Assembly (NCBI GenBank): GCA_023379705.1
Contig: JAMCPS010000148.1
Location: forward strand, 1 to 44,215
DNA: 44,215 nucleotides
Reading direction: 5' to 3'
From: Campylobacterota bacterium
GTDB taxonomy: Bacteria; Campylobacterota; Campylobacteria; Campylobacterales; Sulfurimonadaceae
The notes under the pieces were generated by a model. That model worked only from the letters and a program-made list of their open reading frames with translations. It made no database searches and was not told the DNA's origin. The translations under genes were made by a program, and so were the position numbers. Shown here one piece after another: positions 2,523 to 44,215 of the stretch (positions are counted from its first letter, which is position 1; each line of letters begins with the position of its first letter).

Positions 2523-3617
2523 TCAATGGGCAAAAAACAATTCTCTGTCGCTGTTAATAAGCATCTTGACGGCCATTAAAACGCTTTGTTCTTGAATGTA
2601 TCGACGGTCTCCATGAAACATAAACCGCTCTGTGTGGACGGATGTTTTAGAGCGTGCGCTGATATAAACGGTTCCTACAGGTTTCGTATCGGTTCCTCCT
2701 GTCGGTCCTGCTATTCCGCTTATTGCGAGAGCATAATCGGCATAGCTTACATTCATGGCTCCCTCAGACATCTGATTGACCACATCTGCACTCACGGCAC
2801 CATGAGTTTCGAGCGATTCATCGTCTACGGCGAGCCAATTGGCTTTGAGGACGTTATCGTAGGTGATTAACGACCCCTCATATATTGATGAAGCACCGCT
2901 GTGCGACGTAAAATAATAGGCAAGTAGGCCACCGCTGCAACTCTCAGCGAAAGAAACTTTTTTGTTATTTTTATGGAGGCGCTCAATGATGAAGGAGGCT
3001 ATGTCTCCTGCTGTGATAACTTTATGGCTCATAAGCCCCTTGGTGGAAGCGATAAATTGAGCGAGGTTACCGTGCTTGCGTGTGTGTATTTTGAGTTTAA
3101 GCCATCCATCAACCAATTCACTGAACTCTAATCGAACATCAAAGGTTTGGGATAAGGGTTCCAGCAGGGTCTGAGCACTGGAAATATCTTCGTTAAAAAT
3201 ATGAATGACGGCATTGCGATGTTCATCTTCGATCAAGATTTGTGGAAGTGGTTTACCTTCGTGTGCTTGAATAACATTGATATCCGAAGAATTGTAGTTG
3301 AGTAAATAACTGCCATTTTCCAAGATACTGGCGCGAGAGGGGATAAGCATTTGGTCTTTTAGGATTTGATTATCGGCCGTAACGGTGCTTAGCAGTTTTC
3401 CGACGATCGTAAAAGTGCTTTTAGTAGTGATGATGATAACTTTTGATTCGTGTTTGAGGAGTTCTTCAAGATGGAGGAATAGCCCCTTGTCCGATTCGTC
3501 AAAATAAGAAATAGAATCAATCGCAGCCAGAGTTGATTTAAGTGTTCGTAAGATGTAGCGTTCGTATGCCTCGTTGAGGGTGAGTCGATTGCCAACAAAA
3601 ATGATATCCCGTTTCAT
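2523..3617 (-). CDS. CinA-family protein (PncC-like C-terminal domain)
   Basis: This protein has 364 residues when started at the ATG giving MKRDIIFVGNRL; a longer frame to 3653 runs into the ileS promoter region. The C-terminal part, about residues 200-360, is a clear CinA/PncC nicotinamide-nucleotide amidase domain: VSFAESCSGGLLA, then SGIAGPTGGTDTKPVGTVY and a terminal FHGDRRYIQEQSV block. Known members convert nicotinamide mononucleotide to nicotinate mononucleotide in pyridine-nucleotide salvage. The N-terminal part occupies the place of the MoCF-like domain of full-length CinA but lacks its usual Gly/Asp-rich core (TGGLGPT.DD), so it is divergent. It is transcribed divergently from ileS. 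Amidase function is probable; the N-terminal role is unknown. Confidence 0.8.
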   Translation of the reverse strand: MKRDIIFVGNRLTLNEAYERYILRTLKSTLAAIDSISYFDESDKGLFLHLEELLKHESKVIIITTKSTFTIVGKLLSTVTADNQILKDQMLIPSRASILENGSYLLNYNSSDINVIQAHEGKPLPQILIEDEHRNAVIHIFNEDISSAQTLLEPLSQTFDVRLEFSELVDGWLKLKIHTRKHGNLAQFIASTKGLMSHKVITAGDIASFIIERLHKNNKKVSFAESCSGGLLAYYFTSHSGASSIYEGSLITYDNVLKANWLAVDDESLETHGAVSADVVNQMSEGAMNVSYADYALAISGIAGPTGGTDTKPVGTVYISARSKTSVHTERFMFHGDRRYIQEQSVLMAVKMLINSDRELFFAH

Positions 3618-3692
3618 GCTTTTTCCGGTAATAAATTTGGAACAGTATAGCATAGCTGTCCATATGACAGCAAAAATTAATCCCCAAACCGC

Positions 3693-3698
3693 TATAAT
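3693..3698 (+). promoter_or_regulatory. -10 box upstream of ileS
   Basis: A perfect TATAAT lies 35 bases before the ileS ATG, inside the 115-base divergent region between cinA and ileS. No good TTGACA stands 16-18 bases upstream. That is common in Campylobacterota, where the -35 element is weakly conserved. Confidence 0.6.
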
Positions 3699-3732
3699 CT
3701 GCCACTTTTATACGCATATTTTAAGGGATGAG

Positions 3733-6486
3733 ATGGATTATAAAGATACCCTCCTACTACCTCAAACACAGTTTCCGATGCGCGGAAATTTGGTTAACAA
3801 TGAGCCGCAGCGTTATGCTGCGTGGATCGCCAAAGATGTTTATGGCAAGATGAAGACCAACCGCAAAGGTGCACCGACCTTTACCCTGCATGACGGTCCC
3901 CCTTATGCCAATGGACATACCCATATAGGTCATGCACTCAATAAAATTCTCAAAGACATTATCGTCAAATACAATTATTTTAACGGTAAATCGGTCCGTT
4001 TTACTCCGGGTTGGGATTGCCACGGTTTGCCAATCGAGCAGCAAGTCGAAAAAAAGCTGGGCGGAAAACAGAAAAAAGAGCTTTTGAGCAAGGCAGAAGT
4101 GCGCAAACTTTGCCGTGCGCATGCGAGTGAATTTGTGGATATTCAGCGTGAAGAATTCAAAAAGCTCGGGGTGATAGCAGATTGGGATAAGCCCTATTTG
4201 ACGATGGATTATAAATTTGAAGCCAATATTTACCGAACACTGTGTTCTGTAGCGAAAAAAGGGCTCTTGATTGAGCGATCCAAGCCTGTTTACTGGAGCT
4301 GGGCTGAGCGTACCGCACTGGCGGAAGCTGAAGTAGAGTACGAAGATAAAGAAGATTACTCAATCTATGTCGCGTTTGAGCTTTCCGATGAAGCAAAAAT
4401 ACGTGCAGGAATGGAAGGTAAAGCGGCAATGGTTATCTGGACGACAACTCCTTGGACATTGCCAGCGAATACAGGTATATCTCTCAATCCTGAAGAGGTC
4501 TATGTTCGCACAGCCGATGGCTACATCGTCGCCGAAAAACGGTACGAAGCGATGCTGGAAGAGGGTGTTTTCACAGGCGCCGTCGTGCAGAAAATCGAAG
4601 CGAAAAAACTGGAAAACCTTTATGCTATCAATCCTCTTAACGGTCGCGGTTCTCATCTCGTACTTGGCGAGCACGTTTTGATGGAAAACGGTTCGGGTTG
4701 TGTTCACACAGCTCCGGGCCATGGTGAAGACGATTATCGCATTGGTTTGGTTTACAATCTCGAAGTAGTTATGCCGGTCGATGAGACGGGATGTTATGAC
4801 AACACGATCGTTACCGAAAAACTGCTTCCGAATCCTGAAAGTTTCGTAGGGACTCATATTTTCAAAGCCAATGAGCCGATTATTGAATTACTGGGTCAAA
4901 GTGCCCTTAAAGTATCCAAATTCCGCCACTCGTATCCGCATTGCTGGAGATCACATACTCCATTGATTTTCCGTGCAACGAAGCAATGGTTTATCAGTGT
5001 CGATGGAACGCCTAATGGTGAATCAAAGACGCTTCGTGAAATCGCGTTGGGCGAAGTGGCAAAAACTTCTTTTTACCCTGAAACAGGCCGTAACCGCCTC
5101 AATGCTATGGTTGAAAACCGTCCTGACTGGTGTATTTCCCGTCAACGCGACTGGGGTGTTCCGATTGCACTTTTCCGTGTCAAAGAGACGGGTGAAGTGA
5201 TTTTGGATGAGAAAGTCCTTAACTTTACCGCGATGATTTTTGAGATGCACGGCAGTGATGCGTGGTACTCGATGAGTATTCCTGAACTTCTTTATCCGGG
5301 ATGTCCTCATAAAGCGGACGATTTGGAAAAAGTAACCGACATTTTGGATGTATGGTTTGACAGCGGTTCGACATGGAATGCAGTGCTTAAATCACGTAAC
5401 TACGATGCGGGAACGTATCCGGCTGATCTTTATGTTGAAGGTTCAGACCAGCATCGCGGATGGTTCCAATCATCACTGTTTCTCAGTACGGCAGTCGAAC
5501 ACGTAGCCCCGTATAAAGCACTTTTAACCCACGGATTTACCGTCGATGAAAAGGGCGAGAAAATGTCCAAGTCAAAGGGTAACGTGGTTGCTCCTGACAG
5601 TGTCTTAAAAGAATACGGATCAGAGATTTTACGTCTATGGGTTGCGATGAGCGATTATCAAGGGGATCTGAAAATTTCAGGTAATATCCTCAAGCAGACA
5701 TCAGAACAGTACCGTAAACTGCGTAATACGTTCCGTATTATGCTGGCGAACATTGATGGATTAGACGCAATTGTACCGTACAGTGAAATGGGTGAGATCG
5801 ATAAATGGATTGTTGCAAAGGCAAAAGAAGTTTTTGATGAAACGCATAGATTGTTTGGCGAATATAATTTTGTACATGGCATGAGCGGTCTAAATTACTT
5901 TATCGTCAATGAACTCAGCGGTGTGTACATCGATATTACCAAAGACCGTATGTATTGTGATGCTAAAGAGTCGATTGAACGCCGTTCAAGTCAGAGTGCT
6001 ATGGCAATCATTGCCCGCTCAATGCTCGGACTCATTGCACCTATTTTGACCTACACGGCAGATGAGATTTTTGAAAATGCTCCTGCAGTTATAAAAGGGG
6101 ATGCAAGCGATATTTTTGACATTACCTACAGTCCGATCGATCCGGTAGAAAGTGATTGGGCCGAAGATCGCGCAAAACTTATTCGCGAGTCTTTTAATGA
6201 AATTGTTGATGGATTAAAAAAAGAAAAAGTGATCAAAAATACCCTTGAGTTGGTAATTTCTACTGATATGCACCCGATGTTTAATAAAGCGGATATTGAA
6301 GAGTTTTTAGTGATCTCTAAATGGTGTAAATGTGAATTGAACGATATTCTAGGAACATTTAACGTTGAAGGATGGACATTTAAAGTAGCTAAAGCTACTA
6401 AAGCAAAATGTCCGCGTTGTTGGAAATACCACAGTGTAGACGAAGAGACAGTCTGTGAGCGTTGTGCATCAGTGGTGGGTGTATGA
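3733..6486 (+). CDS. ileS: Isoleucyl-tRNA synthetase
   Basis: This 917-residue class I synthetase charges tRNA-Ile. The ATG at 3733 is chosen because it follows TAAGGGATGAG and gives the family-typical N-terminus MDYKDTLLLPQT; the open frame extends upstream without a ribosome site. The HIGH-type motif (GHTHIGHAL) is near residues 61-69. The KMSKS motif (GEKMSKSKGN) is near residue 610. The CP1 editing domain lies between them (WTTTPWTLPAN). The C-terminal zinc finger is intact (CPRCW ... CERC). Length matches the bacterial family. It heads a long gene train, and its TGA overlaps the next small ORF as ATGA. Confidence 0.98.
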   Translation: MDYKDTLLLPQTQFPMRGNLVNNEPQRYAAWIAKDVYGKMKTNRKGAPTFTLHDGPPYANGHTHIGHALNKILKDIIVKYNYFNGKSVRFTPGWDCHGLPIEQQVEKKLGGKQKKELLSKAEVRKLCRAHASEFVDIQREEFKKLGVIADWDKPYLTMDYKFEANIYRTLCSVAKKGLLIERSKPVYWSWAERTALAEAEVEYEDKEDYSIYVAFELSDEAKIRAGMEGKAAMVIWTTTPWTLPANTGISLNPEEVYVRTADGYIVAEKRYEAMLEEGVFTGAVVQKIEAKKLENLYAINPLNGRGSHLVLGEHVLMENGSGCVHTAPGHGEDDYRIGLVYNLEVVMPVDETGCYDNTIVTEKLLPNPESFVGTHIFKANEPIIELLGQSALKVSKFRHSYPHCWRSHTPLIFRATKQWFISVDGTPNGESKTLREIALGEVAKTSFYPETGRNRLNAMVENRPDWCISRQRDWGVPIALFRVKETGEVILDEKVLNFTAMIFEMHGSDAWYSMSIPELLYPGCPHKADDLEKVTDILDVWFDSGSTWNAVLKSRNYDAGTYPADLYVEGSDQHRGWFQSSLFLSTAVEHVAPYKALLTHGFTVDEKGEKMSKSKGNVVAPDSVLKEYGSEILRLWVAMSDYQGDLKISGNILKQTSEQYRKLRNTFRIMLANIDGLDAIVPYSEMGEIDKWIVAKAKEVFDETHRLFGEYNFVHGMSGLNYFIVNELSGVYIDITKDRMYCDAKESIERRSSQSAMAIIARSMLGLIAPILTYTADEIFENAPAVIKGDASDIFDITYSPIDPVESDWAEDRAKLIRESFNEIVDGLKKEKVIKNTLELVISTDMHPMFNKADIEEFLVISKWCKCELNDILGTFNVEGWTFKVAKATKAKCPRCWKYHSVDEETVCERCASVVGV

Positions 6487-6604
6487 TCGACGTTACGCAA
6501 AGTGTGCCAATGAGTTTTATCATTGAAACGATTGGCGTTATTTTCGCAGTTATAGCGGTTGGTATTTTAATGGTCAGATATGCAAAACGAACAAAGGAGA
6601 ACAG

Positions 6605-6608
<4 letters not shown>
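6483..6608 (+). CDS. 41-aa single-pass membrane peptide, unknown
   Basis: A 41-codon frame begins at an ATG overlapping the ileS stop codon (ATGA). Its TGA overlaps the TTG start of gatA (TTGA). The product is a short polar N-terminus ([10 protein letters not shown]), one hydrophobic helix of about 20 residues (residues 12-31), then a basic tail [10 protein letters not shown]. This fits an N-out, C-in single-span membrane peptide by the positive-inside rule. The gatA ribosome site (AAAGGAG) lies inside its last codons. The perfect end-to-end coupling between two essential translation genes argues that it is genuinely translated. I do not recognise a named family, and it could act simply as a translational bridge. 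Confidence 0.65.
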
Positions 6609-9396
<2,788 letters not shown>

Positions 9397-39486: not shown

Positions 39487-40575
39487 TCAATCCTGATATC
39501 GGGTATGTATGGCATGAACTTCATGTAAGTCAGCGGTAAAAAGCTCAACGAGGAGCGGATCAAAATGGATACCTGAGTTTTGTTTTAAATAATCGATCGC
39601 TTCGTCAAACGACCATGCTTTTTTGTAGGGACGTACAGAGGTGAGGGCATCGAAAACATCGGCAATAGCGACTATACGTCCATACAACGGGATTGCTTCA
39701 CCTGCTAGACCTTGCGGATATCCGCTTCCATCGTATTTTTCATGATGGCTTGCGGCGATGATGTGTCCTGCCTGCAAATACGGACTCGTGGAGTTTTGGA
39801 GAATGTCTGCCCCGATGGCGGCGTGCTGACGCATGATTTTCATCTCATGATCATTGAGTTTTCCGGGTTTGAGGAGGATATTGTCGGGAGTCCCGACTTT
39901 TCCCAAATCGTGCAAGGGGGCTGCAAAGTGCAAAATGTTTTGCTCGGCTTCATCAAGCTTTAGACGTTTTGCCATGAGCACGGCATAGCCCGATACGCGT
40001 TTGACATGATTTGAGGTCTCTTCATCTTTGTACTCAGCGGTACGGGAGAGAACACGCAGGGTTTCGTGTTCTTTTTGTTCCAAAGTGATATACGATTCGG
40101 TTAATTCAGCGATGGTTTTATGCAGACTCGCCGTGGCTTTATCCACTTGAGTGCGTAGGTATTTTTCTTGGTCGTTTAGGCGGACGATTGCCCTGCGCAG
40201 TTTGATGAAATTACGAACACGGTTGAGTAGGATTGCTTTGTCAATCGGTTTTTTGATGAAGTCATTGACTCCGGCCATGAGGGCTTTGATTTGAACGGTG
40301 TCTTGGGCATCGCTGGCGGTGACCATGATGATGGGAGCATCGGAATCAATTCTTTTGACAGCGGCGGTGACCTCTATGCCGTTCATTGAGGGCATCTCAT
40401 AGTCGACGAGCACCATGTCAAATGGGTTTTTTTGCATGTATTCAATGGCAGTGAGGGGATCGGTGAAGTTGACAAACGTTGCATCGACCTCCTGCAAATA
40501 GGTTTCAATCAAGAGCAGGTTCATGTCGTTGTCATCAATGTTAATAATGACAAAGGGGTTATTGCAGCAGATCAT
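39487..40575 (-). CDS. Receiver/HD-GYP c-di-GMP phosphodiesterase
   Basis: This 362-residue response regulator has an N-terminal receiver (IINIDDNDMN; phospho-Asp in MVLVDYEMPSMNG; Lys in FIKKPID), a short coiled coil (about 130-180) and an HD-GYP domain. Metal and active-site motifs are intact: HFAAPLHDLGKVGTPDNILLKPGKL, RQHAAIGADIL, HHEKYDGSGYPQGLAG and ADVFDALTSVRPYK. HD-GYP enzymes hydrolyse c-di-GMP to GMP. The ATG overlaps the stop codon of the large hybrid kinase gene (ATGA), so translation is coupled and the kinase is the likely phosphodonor. It probably lowers c-di-GMP in response to the sensor. Confidence 0.94.
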   Translation of the reverse strand: MICCNNPFVIINIDDNDMNLLLIETYLQEVDATFVNFTDPLTAIEYMQKNPFDMVLVDYEMPSMNGIEVTAAVKRIDSDAPIIMVTASDAQDTVQIKALMAGVNDFIKKPIDKAILLNRVRNFIKLRRAIVRLNDQEKYLRTQVDKATASLHKTIAELTESYITLEQKEHETLRVLSRTAEYKDEETSNHVKRVSGYAVLMAKRLKLDEAEQNILHFAAPLHDLGKVGTPDNILLKPGKLNDHEMKIMRQHAAIGADILQNSTSPYLQAGHIIAASHHEKYDGSGYPQGLAGEAIPLYGRIVAIADVFDALTSVRPYKKAWSFDEAIDYLKQNSGIHFDPLLVELFTADLHEVHAIHTRYQD

Positions 40576-43500
40576 ACAAGCTCGCTTTTCATTTGTAAAA
40601 TGATTTTGTGTGTCTCATCTGCCAACTGTGACAAACGATTTGTTTTTTCATCTGCCTCAAGAGCCGGAAGATCTTTTTCAAATGTTTCACACATCATGCC
40701 TAACTCATTAAGAAAAAGATTTCTTGAAATCCCTTTGAGGGAATGAACTGCCATTTTTAATGCTGAGGTATCTTCATGTTCTTCTTTGAATTTGGTTAAA
40801 ATGGCTTGGGCATTGGTGATGAACTTTTTGAATAAATTGAGCACAATTTCCTCAGGCAATTCGATTTTCGAAGCAACAAGCGAGGTCAAGCTTTGATTAT
40901 TAGGGCTAATGGATTTTTGGGTCTTATTTGAAGTAGCTTGCGTAATGGCAATGGAGCTGAAATACTCATTAAGCAATTTTGTAAGTTCTAATCTTCGCAA
41001 GGGTTTGATCAGATACCCATCCAAACCTTTGGAAAGGTAAGAAGTGATGTTTTTGGCAACGGCATCAGCGCTTAGACCGATTATAGGGGTATGTTTTACC
41101 CCCGTTTCATTTTCATATTGCAGTATTTGTCCCGTTGCGGTGATCCCGTCCATATTGGGCATGTTAATGTCCATGAGGACGAGATCGTATCTGTCTGTCA
41201 TGAATTTTTTGACCGCTTGATAGCCATCATGAGCCAGATCATGCTCAATTTTGAGCCGATTTAAAAGCTCTTCGATGTAGAGCTGATTGACCTCATTGTC
41301 TTCCGCAACAAGAACGCGAAGACCCTCAAAGGTAACTTCTATCGGTTCTTGGACAGATGCCTCAACGTGCTGGTCATCAATTTCGAGTCGATGGGCGATG
41401 GTGGAGTAGCTGATCTCTTCATTCAAATAGATGACATTGGGAGCTTCAAACTCTGGATGAGGTGTGCTCATGTGGGAGGGGATGATAAATATTTTAGCGT
41501 GCGCAAAACGTTTGATCACATCGTGTATCTCTTGGACACTCATCATGTCCATGAACACAATAATGTGACTTTGGGACTCATCGGCGAGCGTATCGAGGGT
41601 ACTGTCCCTAAAAACATGAGAATCACAGCAGGCAAATTGGTGAAGATAGCGTTCAACGAGCAAAAATCGCGCCGTTGGTTTGCTCTGAGGTAAATACAAA
41701 TGGGTTGTGTGTACTTGGCATTGGTAATTTGGAGTATCTGCGTTGTAGGTAAACTCAAAGAGGACGTTGAATACGCTTCCGCTTCCAAAGGTACTTTTGA
41801 ACGACATTTTGCCATTCATCGCGGCAATAATACGTGTCACGATGTTTAGACCCAATCCTGTACCGCCAAATTCACGAGCGATGGAGTTGTCGGCTTGAAC
41901 AAACGGTTTGAAAATATTGATTTTGTTTTGAGGGAGTACACCGATTCCCTCATCGGCAACGGTCAATCCAATCGTGACTCTTTGATTTGCGGTTCTAAGA
42001 CTCTTAATCCGAACGTAGACTTTTTTGCCACTTGGGGTAAATTTGATTGCGTTACTGAGCAGATTGATGAGCACTTGTTTGAGGCGCAAGAAATCAACGT
42101 CCACGGTGGTTGGAAGTTTTGGATCGATGAAGACGAGGAGATCCACCTCTTTTTTACGGGCAACGGAATAAAAAGGATAGATGATCGACTCAAGCTCACC
42201 GGTGATGTTGATAGGTTGGAGATGCAGTTCCAATGTTTCACGATCAAATTTCATGACGTCCAAAATGTCGTTGATGATTTGACGCAGGGTTTCTCCGCTG
42301 TATTCAATCGTTTTGAGGTATTTTTTCTGTTGTTCGTCCAGCGGTGTCTCTGCGAGCAACTCGGCAAACCCTAAAATACCGTTAAGCGGAGTGCGGATCT
42401 CGTGACTCATGGTGGCCAAAAATCGGCTTTCAGCCTCTGAGGATTCTTTTGCCTCACGCAGTGCACGGTTGAGTAATGTAATGTCTTCAAAGGAAACGAG
42501 ATAACAGATCCCTTTGGTGAAATTGTTGTCTTGGATTTTTTCGACATGAATGGCAAAGACATGATGATTGAAAAAACGGTCTTTCATGGCCACTTTGATT
42601 AACTGACCGCGCATCTCATACAAACGCTCCAAACAGACCAACCGCTCATTATTATGAATGTAAAAAAGATCGTCTGCATCCAAGAAAAGATCACTGAGGT
42701 TGACAAATCCACACTCTTTTGGGTCCAGACTTTTGATCCCTAAAAACTCCATAAAACTGCTGTTGGACTGGATAACCCCTTTGGATTTGTCCACCATACA
42801 AATGAGACTCTTTTGGGCATCGAGTACGTTTTGGATACGGCGGCGCTGTTCCTCTATCTCATGCTGTTTTTCGATGAGCGAAGTGATGTCATGACGGATA
42901 CTGATATACTCGATAACTTTGTCGTTGTTGTCCATGATTGCTGAAATGGTCGAGTCGACATAGTAGCTGCTGCCATCTTTGCGTCTGTTTTTGATGATTC
43001 CGCGAAATATCTTTTTGCTTTGGATGGTTTCCCACATCTGTTCAAAAAAAAGAGGAGCATTTTCAGGGTGACGGACGATGTTGTGCGGTTTTCCGATGAG
43101 CTCTTCTCTGGTGTATCCGGTAATCTCACAAAAGGCATCGTTGACGTAGGTGATGATGCCTGCAAGATCGGCTTTGGAGACGATGGAACTTTTGTCAATC
43201 ATCGCCTTGAGCTGAGTTGAGAGACTTTGCTCTTGATGGAGTATTTGTTTGTTGATTTGATAGTCAAGGTGATGGGTGATTTTAGAGAGAAGTTTTTCGT
43301 AAGAGTAGGGGCGAATTAAAATACTGTTGATTCCCATACGGTAAAATTTCGAGCTGTAGTGTGTTTGCGCTTCGTTTAGGAGTAAAATCATCGGTACTTC
43401 AGAGAGTTTTGTAATACGGATAAAACGGATCATAGCGAATGCTTGGTCTATGTATTGTGGATTCGTAAAATCAAGAACGAGTAAATCGGGCAGTTCATGG

Positions 43501-44090
43501 GAGTGATCGTCCCATTTTTCCATAAGCGCAGAGCACGACTCTAAAAAACAGAGCCTATAGCCGCGATGAGAAACAAGTTGATTGAATTTTTGTTGAGTAA
43601 AATTGTTGCCGCCAATCATGGTGACGTGATAATTTGCATTATTTCGGATGGCTTCAAATAAACGGATAAGTTCTTCTGCAATGTCTTCTAGCGGTTCATG
43701 TTTGAAAAGATACTCTAAAACCCCGCTTTCAAACAGATATTCGCGTCGTTGGGGGCTGTTGTCCGATGTATAGATGATAACCCCTGCTGAGTCGGGACTT
43801 TTTAGGTACTCATTGAGTTTCGATTCGTTACACGATTCATAGACGGGATCGATAAGGATAAAATCGAGATGTCGTGAAAAAACGTCTGAAATTTCATCTG
43901 ATGAGAATGCCTGCAATACGGTGCACCCAAATGCACGAAGTTTACTAGCAATATAGTTATTAAGAGCTTCATCTGAATCGATGAGCGCAACCGTATAATT
44001 ACAGTTAAAAGAGGGAGCAAAAGTAACCCTAAGTAAATTTTGATATCTCAAAAAATAATGATAAAATAAAGTTATGAATAGTTTAAGCAC
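40572..44090 (-). CDS. Multi-receiver hybrid histidine kinase with Hpt
   Basis: This soluble hybrid kinase has up to 1172 residues. Domains in order: a receiver-like domain (about 31-145, DSDEAL, LIDP); a second degenerate receiver (about 150-280, acidic pocket lost, Lys replaced by Arg in LIRPYS); two PAS domains (about 295-415 and 425-545); HisKA with phospho-His in MSHEIRTPLNGILG; ATPase (NLLSNAIKF, DEGIGV, GGTGLGLNI); a degenerate receiver-like block; an intact receiver (VLVAEDNEVNQL, LVLMDINMPNMDG, YLIKP); and a C-terminal Hpt with His in AVHSLKGISRN. The complete His-Asp-His chain can pass phosphate to the two downstream receivers. The start is doubtful: the GTG at 44090 lies within the repeat structure and has no good ribosome site. 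Confidence 0.9.
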   Translation of the reverse strand: MLKLFITLFYHYFLRYQNLLRVTFAPSFNCNYTVALIDSDEALNNYIASKLRAFGCTVLQAFSSDEISDVFSRHLDFILIDPVYESCNESKLNEYLKSPDSAGVIIYTSDNSPQRREYLFESGVLEYLFKHEPLEDIAEELIRLFEAIRNNANYHVTMIGGNNFTQQKFNQLVSHRGYRLCFLESCSALMEKWDDHSHELPDLLVLDFTNPQYIDQAFAMIRFIRITKLSEVPMILLLNEAQTHYSSKFYRMGINSILIRPYSYEKLLSKITHHLDYQINKQILHQEQSLSTQLKAMIDKSSIVSKADLAGIITYVNDAFCEITGYTREELIGKPHNIVRHPENAPLFFEQMWETIQSKKIFRGIIKNRRKDGSSYYVDSTISAIMDNNDKVIEYISIRHDITSLIEKQHEIEEQRRRIQNVLDAQKSLICMVDKSKGVIQSNSSFMEFLGIKSLDPKECGFVNLSDLFLDADDLFYIHNNERLVCLERLYEMRGQLIKVAMKDRFFNHHVFAIHVEKIQDNNFTKGICYLVSFEDITLLNRALREAKESSEAESRFLATMSHEIRTPLNGILGFAELLAETPLDEQQKKYLKTIEYSGETLRQIINDILDVMKFDRETLELHLQPINITGELESIIYPFYSVARKKEVDLLVFIDPKLPTTVDVDFLRLKQVLINLLSNAIKFTPSGKKVYVRIKSLRTANQRVTIGLTVADEGIGVLPQNKINIFKPFVQADNSIAREFGGTGLGLNIVTRIIAAMNGKMSFKSTFGSGSVFNVLFEFTYNADTPNYQCQVHTTHLYLPQSKPTARFLLVERYLHQFACCDSHVFRDSTLDTLADESQSHIIVFMDMMSVQEIHDVIKRFAHAKIFIIPSHMSTPHPEFEAPNVIYLNEEISYSTIAHRLEIDDQHVEASVQEPIEVTFEGLRVLVAEDNEVNQLYIEELLNRLKIEHDLAHDGYQAVKKFMTDRYDLVLMDINMPNMDGITATGQILQYENETGVKHTPIIGLSADAVAKNITSYLSKGLDGYLIKPLRRLELTKLLNEYFSSIAITQATSNKTQKSISPNNQSLTSLVASKIELPEEIVLNLFKKFITNAQAILTKFKEEHEDTSALKMAVHSLKGISRNLFLNELGMMCETFEKDLPALEADEKTNRLSQLADETHKIILQMKSELV
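43898..44024 (-). repeat. Left arm of 127-bp perfect inverted repeat
   Basis: These 127 bases are the exact reverse complement of 44089-44215, separated by a unique 64-base spacer (44025-44088). The arm encodes residues about 23-64 of the large hybrid kinase. The right arm runs to the last base of the window, so the true outer limit of the repeat is unknown. Confidence 0.97.
44025..44088. other. 64-bp unique spacer with start region
   Basis: This AT-rich spacer lies between the repeat arms. Read on the plus strand it carries TAAAAT (44062-44067) and ATGAATAGTTTAAGC leading in frame into the right arm. Read on the minus strand it is open in frame into the left arm but has only GTG or TTG starts without ribosome sites. 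Confidence 0.7.
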
Positions 44091-44215
44091 TTTTGCTCCC
44101 TCTTTTAACTGTAATTATACGGTTGCGCTCATCGATTCAGATGAAGCTCTTAATAACTATATTGCTAGTAAACTTCGTGCATTTGGGTGCACCGTATTGC
44201 AGGCATTCTCATCAG
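44074..44215 (+). CDS. Partial hybrid-kinase N-terminus (right arm copy)
   Basis: An ATG-started frame, MNSLSTFAPSFNCNYTVAL, continues IDSDEALNNY and runs off the end of the window after 47 codons. From the sixth codon on it is identical to the N-terminal receiver-like domain of the minus-strand 1172-residue kinase. The ATG, with a plausible -10 upstream, looks like a more natural start than that of the minus-strand copy. It may be a real divergent paralogue or the product of an assembly fold-back. Confidence 0.5.
   Translation, partial: MNSLSTFAPSFNCNYTVALIDSDEALNNYIASKLRAFGCTVLQAFSS
44089..44215 (+). repeat. Right arm of 127-bp perfect inverted repeat
   Basis: This is the exact reverse complement of 43898-44024 and ends at the window edge. 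The arm length of exactly 127 bases equals a common largest k-mer in short-read assembly, which points to a graph-end overlap. Confidence 0.97.

Follow-up and report, generated by a model that had tools for sequence, protein, structure and literature searches.

A contig that ends in its own mirror image

One contig of a draft bacterial genome ends in an inverted copy of itself at a kinase gene, raising the question of whether the organism carries a true inverted duplication or whether the fold-back arose during sequencing and assembly. The window, meaning the whole stretch of DNA that we analysed, is the entire contig C148 (G000:C148:1-44215, 44215 bases). The draft, G000, comprises 183 contigs and 2,296,632 bases, with a completeness of 99.9 and a contamination of 7.89. 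The initial annotation described bases 43898-44024 and the last 127 bases as exact reverse complements around a 64-bp spacer, with a right arm that stops only because the sequence stops. Both points are confirmed. The last 318 bases of the window consist of two perfect inverted arms (127 nt, 100% complementary) and the 64-bp spacer, and the right arm runs to the last base of the window, where C148 itself ends. A perfect match of 127 bp is far beyond chance, and this length rules out a chance origin of the arms. The features of the region are as follows, with the basis for each in brackets.

40572..44024, minus strand: hybrid histidine kinase, with its natural first 5 codons in the spacer in opposite orientation (open reading frame and domains; start by way of the relative G010)
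43898..44024, minus strand: left arm of the fold-back; it codes for the N-terminal part of the hybrid histidine kinase and runs on into the remaining gene (127 nt, 100% complementary)
44016..44024, no strand: left copy of a 9-bp inverted repeat, AGCAAAAGT, the likely fold-back site (edge of the stretch common to contig C146)
44025..44088, no strand: 64-bp loop, the same sequence as in the hairpin that opens C146 (comparison with C146)
44025..44088, no strand: in G010, the equivalent of this loop lies between the kinase start and a molybdopterin oxidoreductase gene, whose 3' end it adjoins (comparison with G010)
44074..44076, plus strand: ATG equivalent to the G010 kinase start, reading into the right arm and not the left (comparison with G010)
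44089..44097, no strand: right copy of the 9-bp inverted repeat, ACTTTTGCT (complementarity with the left copy)
44089..44215, plus strand: right arm, a reverse copy of the left arm that is exactly one k-mer (127) long and ends with the contig (self-comparison, contig-end overlaps, simulation)

The arms match the assembly k-mer

Exact end-to-end overlaps between contigs, sought from 20 to 400 bases, were found in 39 pairs, and 39 of 39 measured 127 bp. The assembly is therefore of the de Bruijn type with k=127. Hairpins like the one in C148 recur at 6 of the 240 contig ends examined, the window end included, and their arms measure 127 bp (five ends) or 126 bp (one end):

C148, end: loop 64, arm 127
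C146, start: loop 64, arm 127
C12, start (L059): loop 85, arm 127
C47, start (L114): loop 286, arm 127
C74, start (L141): loop 162, arm 127
C45, end (L112): loop 444, arm 126

The uniform overlaps and the recurring hairpin ends bear out two earlier suggestions, that 127 is the k-mer of the assembler and that the contig was ended at a hairpin in the assembly graph. The 126-bp arm of C45 departs from k. Apart from the pair C148 and C146, the loops are unrelated to each other, giving five different loops at six ends. The count covers 140 of the 183 contigs (280 - 32 - 8 = 240 ends, leaving out 32 ends on 16 contigs of less than 3,000 bases each that read as N, and the 3' ends of 8 long contigs). 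From each end the hairpin test looked back 2,000 bases, or 800 for 20 of the ends.

We also scanned 1,444,275 bases, including 45,556 N, for perfect fold-backs (minimum 31 bp, within 1,200 bases), taking only the first 20,000 bases of contigs longer than 20,000 bases, except for C148 and C146. Nine were found, namely the six hairpin ends and three shorter ones (96 bp in C176, 54 bp from base 4 of C163 and 42 bp in C29). Outside contig ends, no arm of k length turned up in the sequence covered by the scan. The fold-back in C176 (414-732, L043) is an internal perfect inverted repeat whose 96-bp arms enclose a loop of exactly 127 bp, the assembly k.

A second contig folds back at the same spacer

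Searching the genome with the end of the window returned an 82-bp identical stretch at the start of C146 (window 44016-44097, 100%). The shared bases comprise the 64-bp spacer and, to its left and right, the 9-bp stretches that form the inverted repeat AGCAAAAGT / ACTTTTGCT. Positions 1-318 of C146 (L026) are a 127+64+127 hairpin in their own right, with a spacer identical to that of C148 and different arms. The next-best match to the shared stretch in the genome has E = 0.029 over 25 bp. In this draft the 9-bp repeats are present, and both flanks meet both spacer orientations only by way of the hairpins; the same search gave no match joining the kinase side to the C146 side.

The relative G010 has the two flanks next to each other, in single copy each and separated by the spacer, within a single contig of 353,086 bp. 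The stretch compared (L046) holds a kinase ORF at 2565-6032 (minus) that directly adjoins a 673-aa ORF at 6063-8084 (minus) with molybdopterin oxidoreductase domains. Its identity is 88% to C148, as far as window base 44023, and 94% to C146, starting at C146 base 192. The equivalent of the spacer occurs once between the flanks (90% over 79 bp), and the kinase starts with an ATG within this junction. By eye, the perfect 9-bp repeat is absent from G010. Because G010 holds both flanks adjacent, once each, with the same spacer between them, C148 and C146 are most likely natural neighbours that each fold back at one junction.

The adjacency of the kinase and the C146 sequence was found in one of the five relatives compared, G010 only. 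For the remaining four (G021, G028, G030 and G006), the first 3,000 bases of C146 served as the query. In G021 the match to C146 (80%) begins only at query base 2202 and lies some 4 kb away from the kinase. Among the 4.5-9 kb stretches compared for the other three, the one from G030 gave only short C146 matches and no good one, and those from G028 and G006 gave none.

Part of the G010 region covered by C146 (91-94%) is also matched, at 84%, by another contig of the draft, C73. Similarly, C77 and C85 match C45 at 84-88%. Judging from these similarities, a second strain or species, related to the first, may be present in the bin, which would fit its contamination of 7.89.

Relatives are colinear at three other hairpin ends

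Reciprocal hairpins on both sides of a junction were seen only for C148 and C146. At three of the other ends the closest relative again has the arm once, colinear with the loop (G030 for C12, G010 for C74 and G030 for C45). C67, the natural neighbour of C74, starts at the point where the loop of C74 ends; at this junction GGCAAAAATC at the start of C67 forms a 10-bp inverted repeat with the arm. C17, which matches beyond the C12 loop, does not begin at the loop end. C47 had no match in 40 other genomes of the genus. Searches of the draft with the ends of C12, C74 and C47, to which contigs reading as N are invisible, matched only those contigs themselves, and exact 25-mers of these three loops occurred in no other contig compared. 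The C45 loop has 25-mers in common with C77 and C85.

Simulated fold-back molecules reproduce the contig ends

We simulated a de Bruijn graph from fold-back molecules and the two flanks, with read depths and 400-bp fold-back arms of our own choosing. At k=127 the graph contained two 318-bp edges with 127-bp self-complementary arms. The edges shortened to 262 bp with 99-bp arms at k=99, and no such edge formed at k=77. When native reads were added, the single 318-bp edge was replaced by a path over shared edges (245 + 200 - 127 = 318).

Counting the (k+1)-mers of the hairpins on both contigs shows which molecules could have supplied them at k=127. By itself the native order accounts for 73 of 191, and an inverted spacer raises this to 146. 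Native order together with both fold-backs provides 191/191, one fold-back completing just its own side. A final graph built purely from reads would therefore mean that the sequenced molecules included fold-backs of both sides. If the assembler also received contigs of a smaller k, an inverted spacer would be enough, since its supply at k=77 is complete (241/241).

Origin of the fold-backs

We consider it highly likely that the contig end is a sequencing and assembly artefact, with chimeric fold-back molecules arising at short inverted repeats and the k=127 graph cutting them off. The organism itself would carry the kinase, the 64-bp junction and the molybdopterin oxidoreductase gene in that order, once each, as seen in G010, with the 9-bp inverted repeat flanking the junction. 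In the laboratory, single strands might fold or re-prime at this repeat, and the resulting chimeras would read kinase-spacer-kinase' and oxidoreductase-spacer-oxidoreductase'. In a k=127 graph each chimera would become a 318-bp hairpin (k + 64 + k) leading back to the k-mer from which it started, and the contig would consequently end after exactly 127 bases of the second arm. The feature is thus, very probably, not a property of the organism.

The initial annotation had left the choice between a chimeric fold-back and a true duplication open. Arm length shows that the graph set the contig end. It is silent on the true arm length of the underlying molecules and on whether they are chimeric, because the graph would truncate a real duplication at k just the same; the molecules in the simulation carried 400-bp arms, so 127 bp is no counterargument to a long inverted duplication, or to a hairpin-ended or inverted-dimer molecule, at the kinase locus. 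Such a structure would also account for the identity of the arms and for both sides of the junction folding back reciprocally. Reciprocal fold-backs are expected from cruciform resolution or from a template-switching fork. However, the four further hairpin ends have unrelated loops and would call for multiple duplications of this kind in a single genome, G010 carries one copy in colinear order, and the relatives are colinear and single-copy for C12, C74 and C45 too. Together with the spacer shared by C148 and C146, this recurrence and the single copies in relatives favour the chimera and make a real duplication of any of these kinds quite improbable. A hairpin telomere or the end of a linear replicon was set aside on similar grounds (six ends, five different loops, colinear G010).

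Inversion of the 64-bp spacer in part of the molecules, either by real flipping at the 9-bp repeats or through a chimera with two switches, would explain both reciprocal ends at once, with hairpins formed at a smaller k carried up to k=127. Native plus inverted spacer indeed gives all hairpin (k+1)-mers at k=55 (263/263) and k=77 (241/241). Moreover, the spacer contains the kinase ATG and, by eye, an AT-rich, promoter-like stretch, so flipping could matter to the cell. The supply nevertheless falls to 202/219 at k=99 and 146/191 at k=127, while the final k is 127, and an inverted spacer alone is insufficient for the k=127 hairpin. The four other hairpin ends, with loops of different length and sequence, make a dedicated switch unlikely. 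We regard spacer inversion in its general form as improbable, and very improbable the specific version in which the junction is a real, tiny invertible segment with 9-bp repeats that switches the kinase start region in part of the population, the hairpin ends being the assembler's reading of the mixture.

An 82-bp stretch with 9-bp terminal inverted repeats, present at two places with 100% identity, also has the look of a small mobile repeat inserted at two loci. In G010, however, the supposed loci correspond to opposite sides of a single junction, with the homologous stretch once between them (90%, 79 bp), which leads us to reject insertion at two sites, and the next-best match in the draft itself is the weak 25-bp one described above. 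The chance that the shared stretch is mobile is negligible.

The artefact reading fits two published routes. For MDA, Lasken and Stockwell (2007, PMC1855051) give 406 of 475 chimeras (85%) as inverted and more than 70% of junctions as primed at 2-21 complementary nt, and they disfavour self-priming hairpins and template switching as major routes. The resemblance lies in nearby segments joined in inverted orientation at short complementarity, 9 bp here and 10 bp at the C74/C67 junction; unlike the contig ends described here, the cases in that study are single reads, and the present sample may or may not have been amplified. The second route is the PDSM chimera of library preparation, which Chen et al. 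(2024, PMC10908179) attribute to fragmentation and end repair and describe as joining a strand to its own complement at natural inverted repeats. Fold-back at a naturally occurring inverted repeat is common to both systems, but that account concerns low-frequency errors in human tumour libraries, whereas here the events would need to be frequent enough to shape a bacterial assembly (PMC10908179). The fold-backs of the Breakinator report are likewise technical reads that mimic structural variants; they come from long-read platforms, in contrast to the k=127 overlaps of de Bruijn type seen here (PMC12870357). In the titles and abstract openings returned by our literature search we recognised no contig-end arms equal to k, and we make no claim that the observation is unpublished.

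The laboratory step behind the fold-backs may have been amplification, end repair or another. The fold-back reading does not account for the loss of the native C148-C146 link in the assembly. Nor does it explain what made this site a frequent one, because 9-bp inverted repeats of exactly this loop length are common (2 in 131,839 bases) and do not account for folding at this particular site, and folding predictions give a stem-loop of modest stability (-7.1 and -7.3 kcal/mol on the respective strands, DNA parameters).

The start of the hybrid kinase

The gene in both arms encodes PAS, HisKA, HATPase_c, response regulator and Hpt domains, which agrees with the earlier view that each arm holds the N-terminus of one hybrid histidine kinase. 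That view needs refinement in one respect: measured against G010, the spacer is naturally oriented relative to the right arm alone. By the same standard, the long left copy meets the spacer in reverse orientation and is missing its first 5 codons. The GTG start at 44090 of the 1172-aa ORF, which lies inside the fold-back, is for this reason probably spurious. The G010 comparison places the natural start at the ATG of 44074-44076, read toward the right arm. With the kinase as the query, the three closest named relatives were Sulfuricurvum MAGs, at 87, 79 and 72% identity (best segment), and the three remaining loci showed 32-38% identity. These relatives suggest that the draft comes from a Sulfuricurvum-like bacterium.

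Implications

These results call for caution, as 6 of the 240 ends examined in this draft carry an inverted terminal repeat of k length (126 in one case) that is very likely false. Such ends could pass for genuine inverted duplications, terminal inverted repeats or hairpin ends, and they may add spurious gene starts. Useful checks are to compare the arm length with the assembly k, the loop with neighbouring contigs and the copy number with that in a relative. The same checks suggest that C148 and C146 are adjacent in this organism. The mirror-image end of C148 is very probably an ordinary by-product and not a real duplication.
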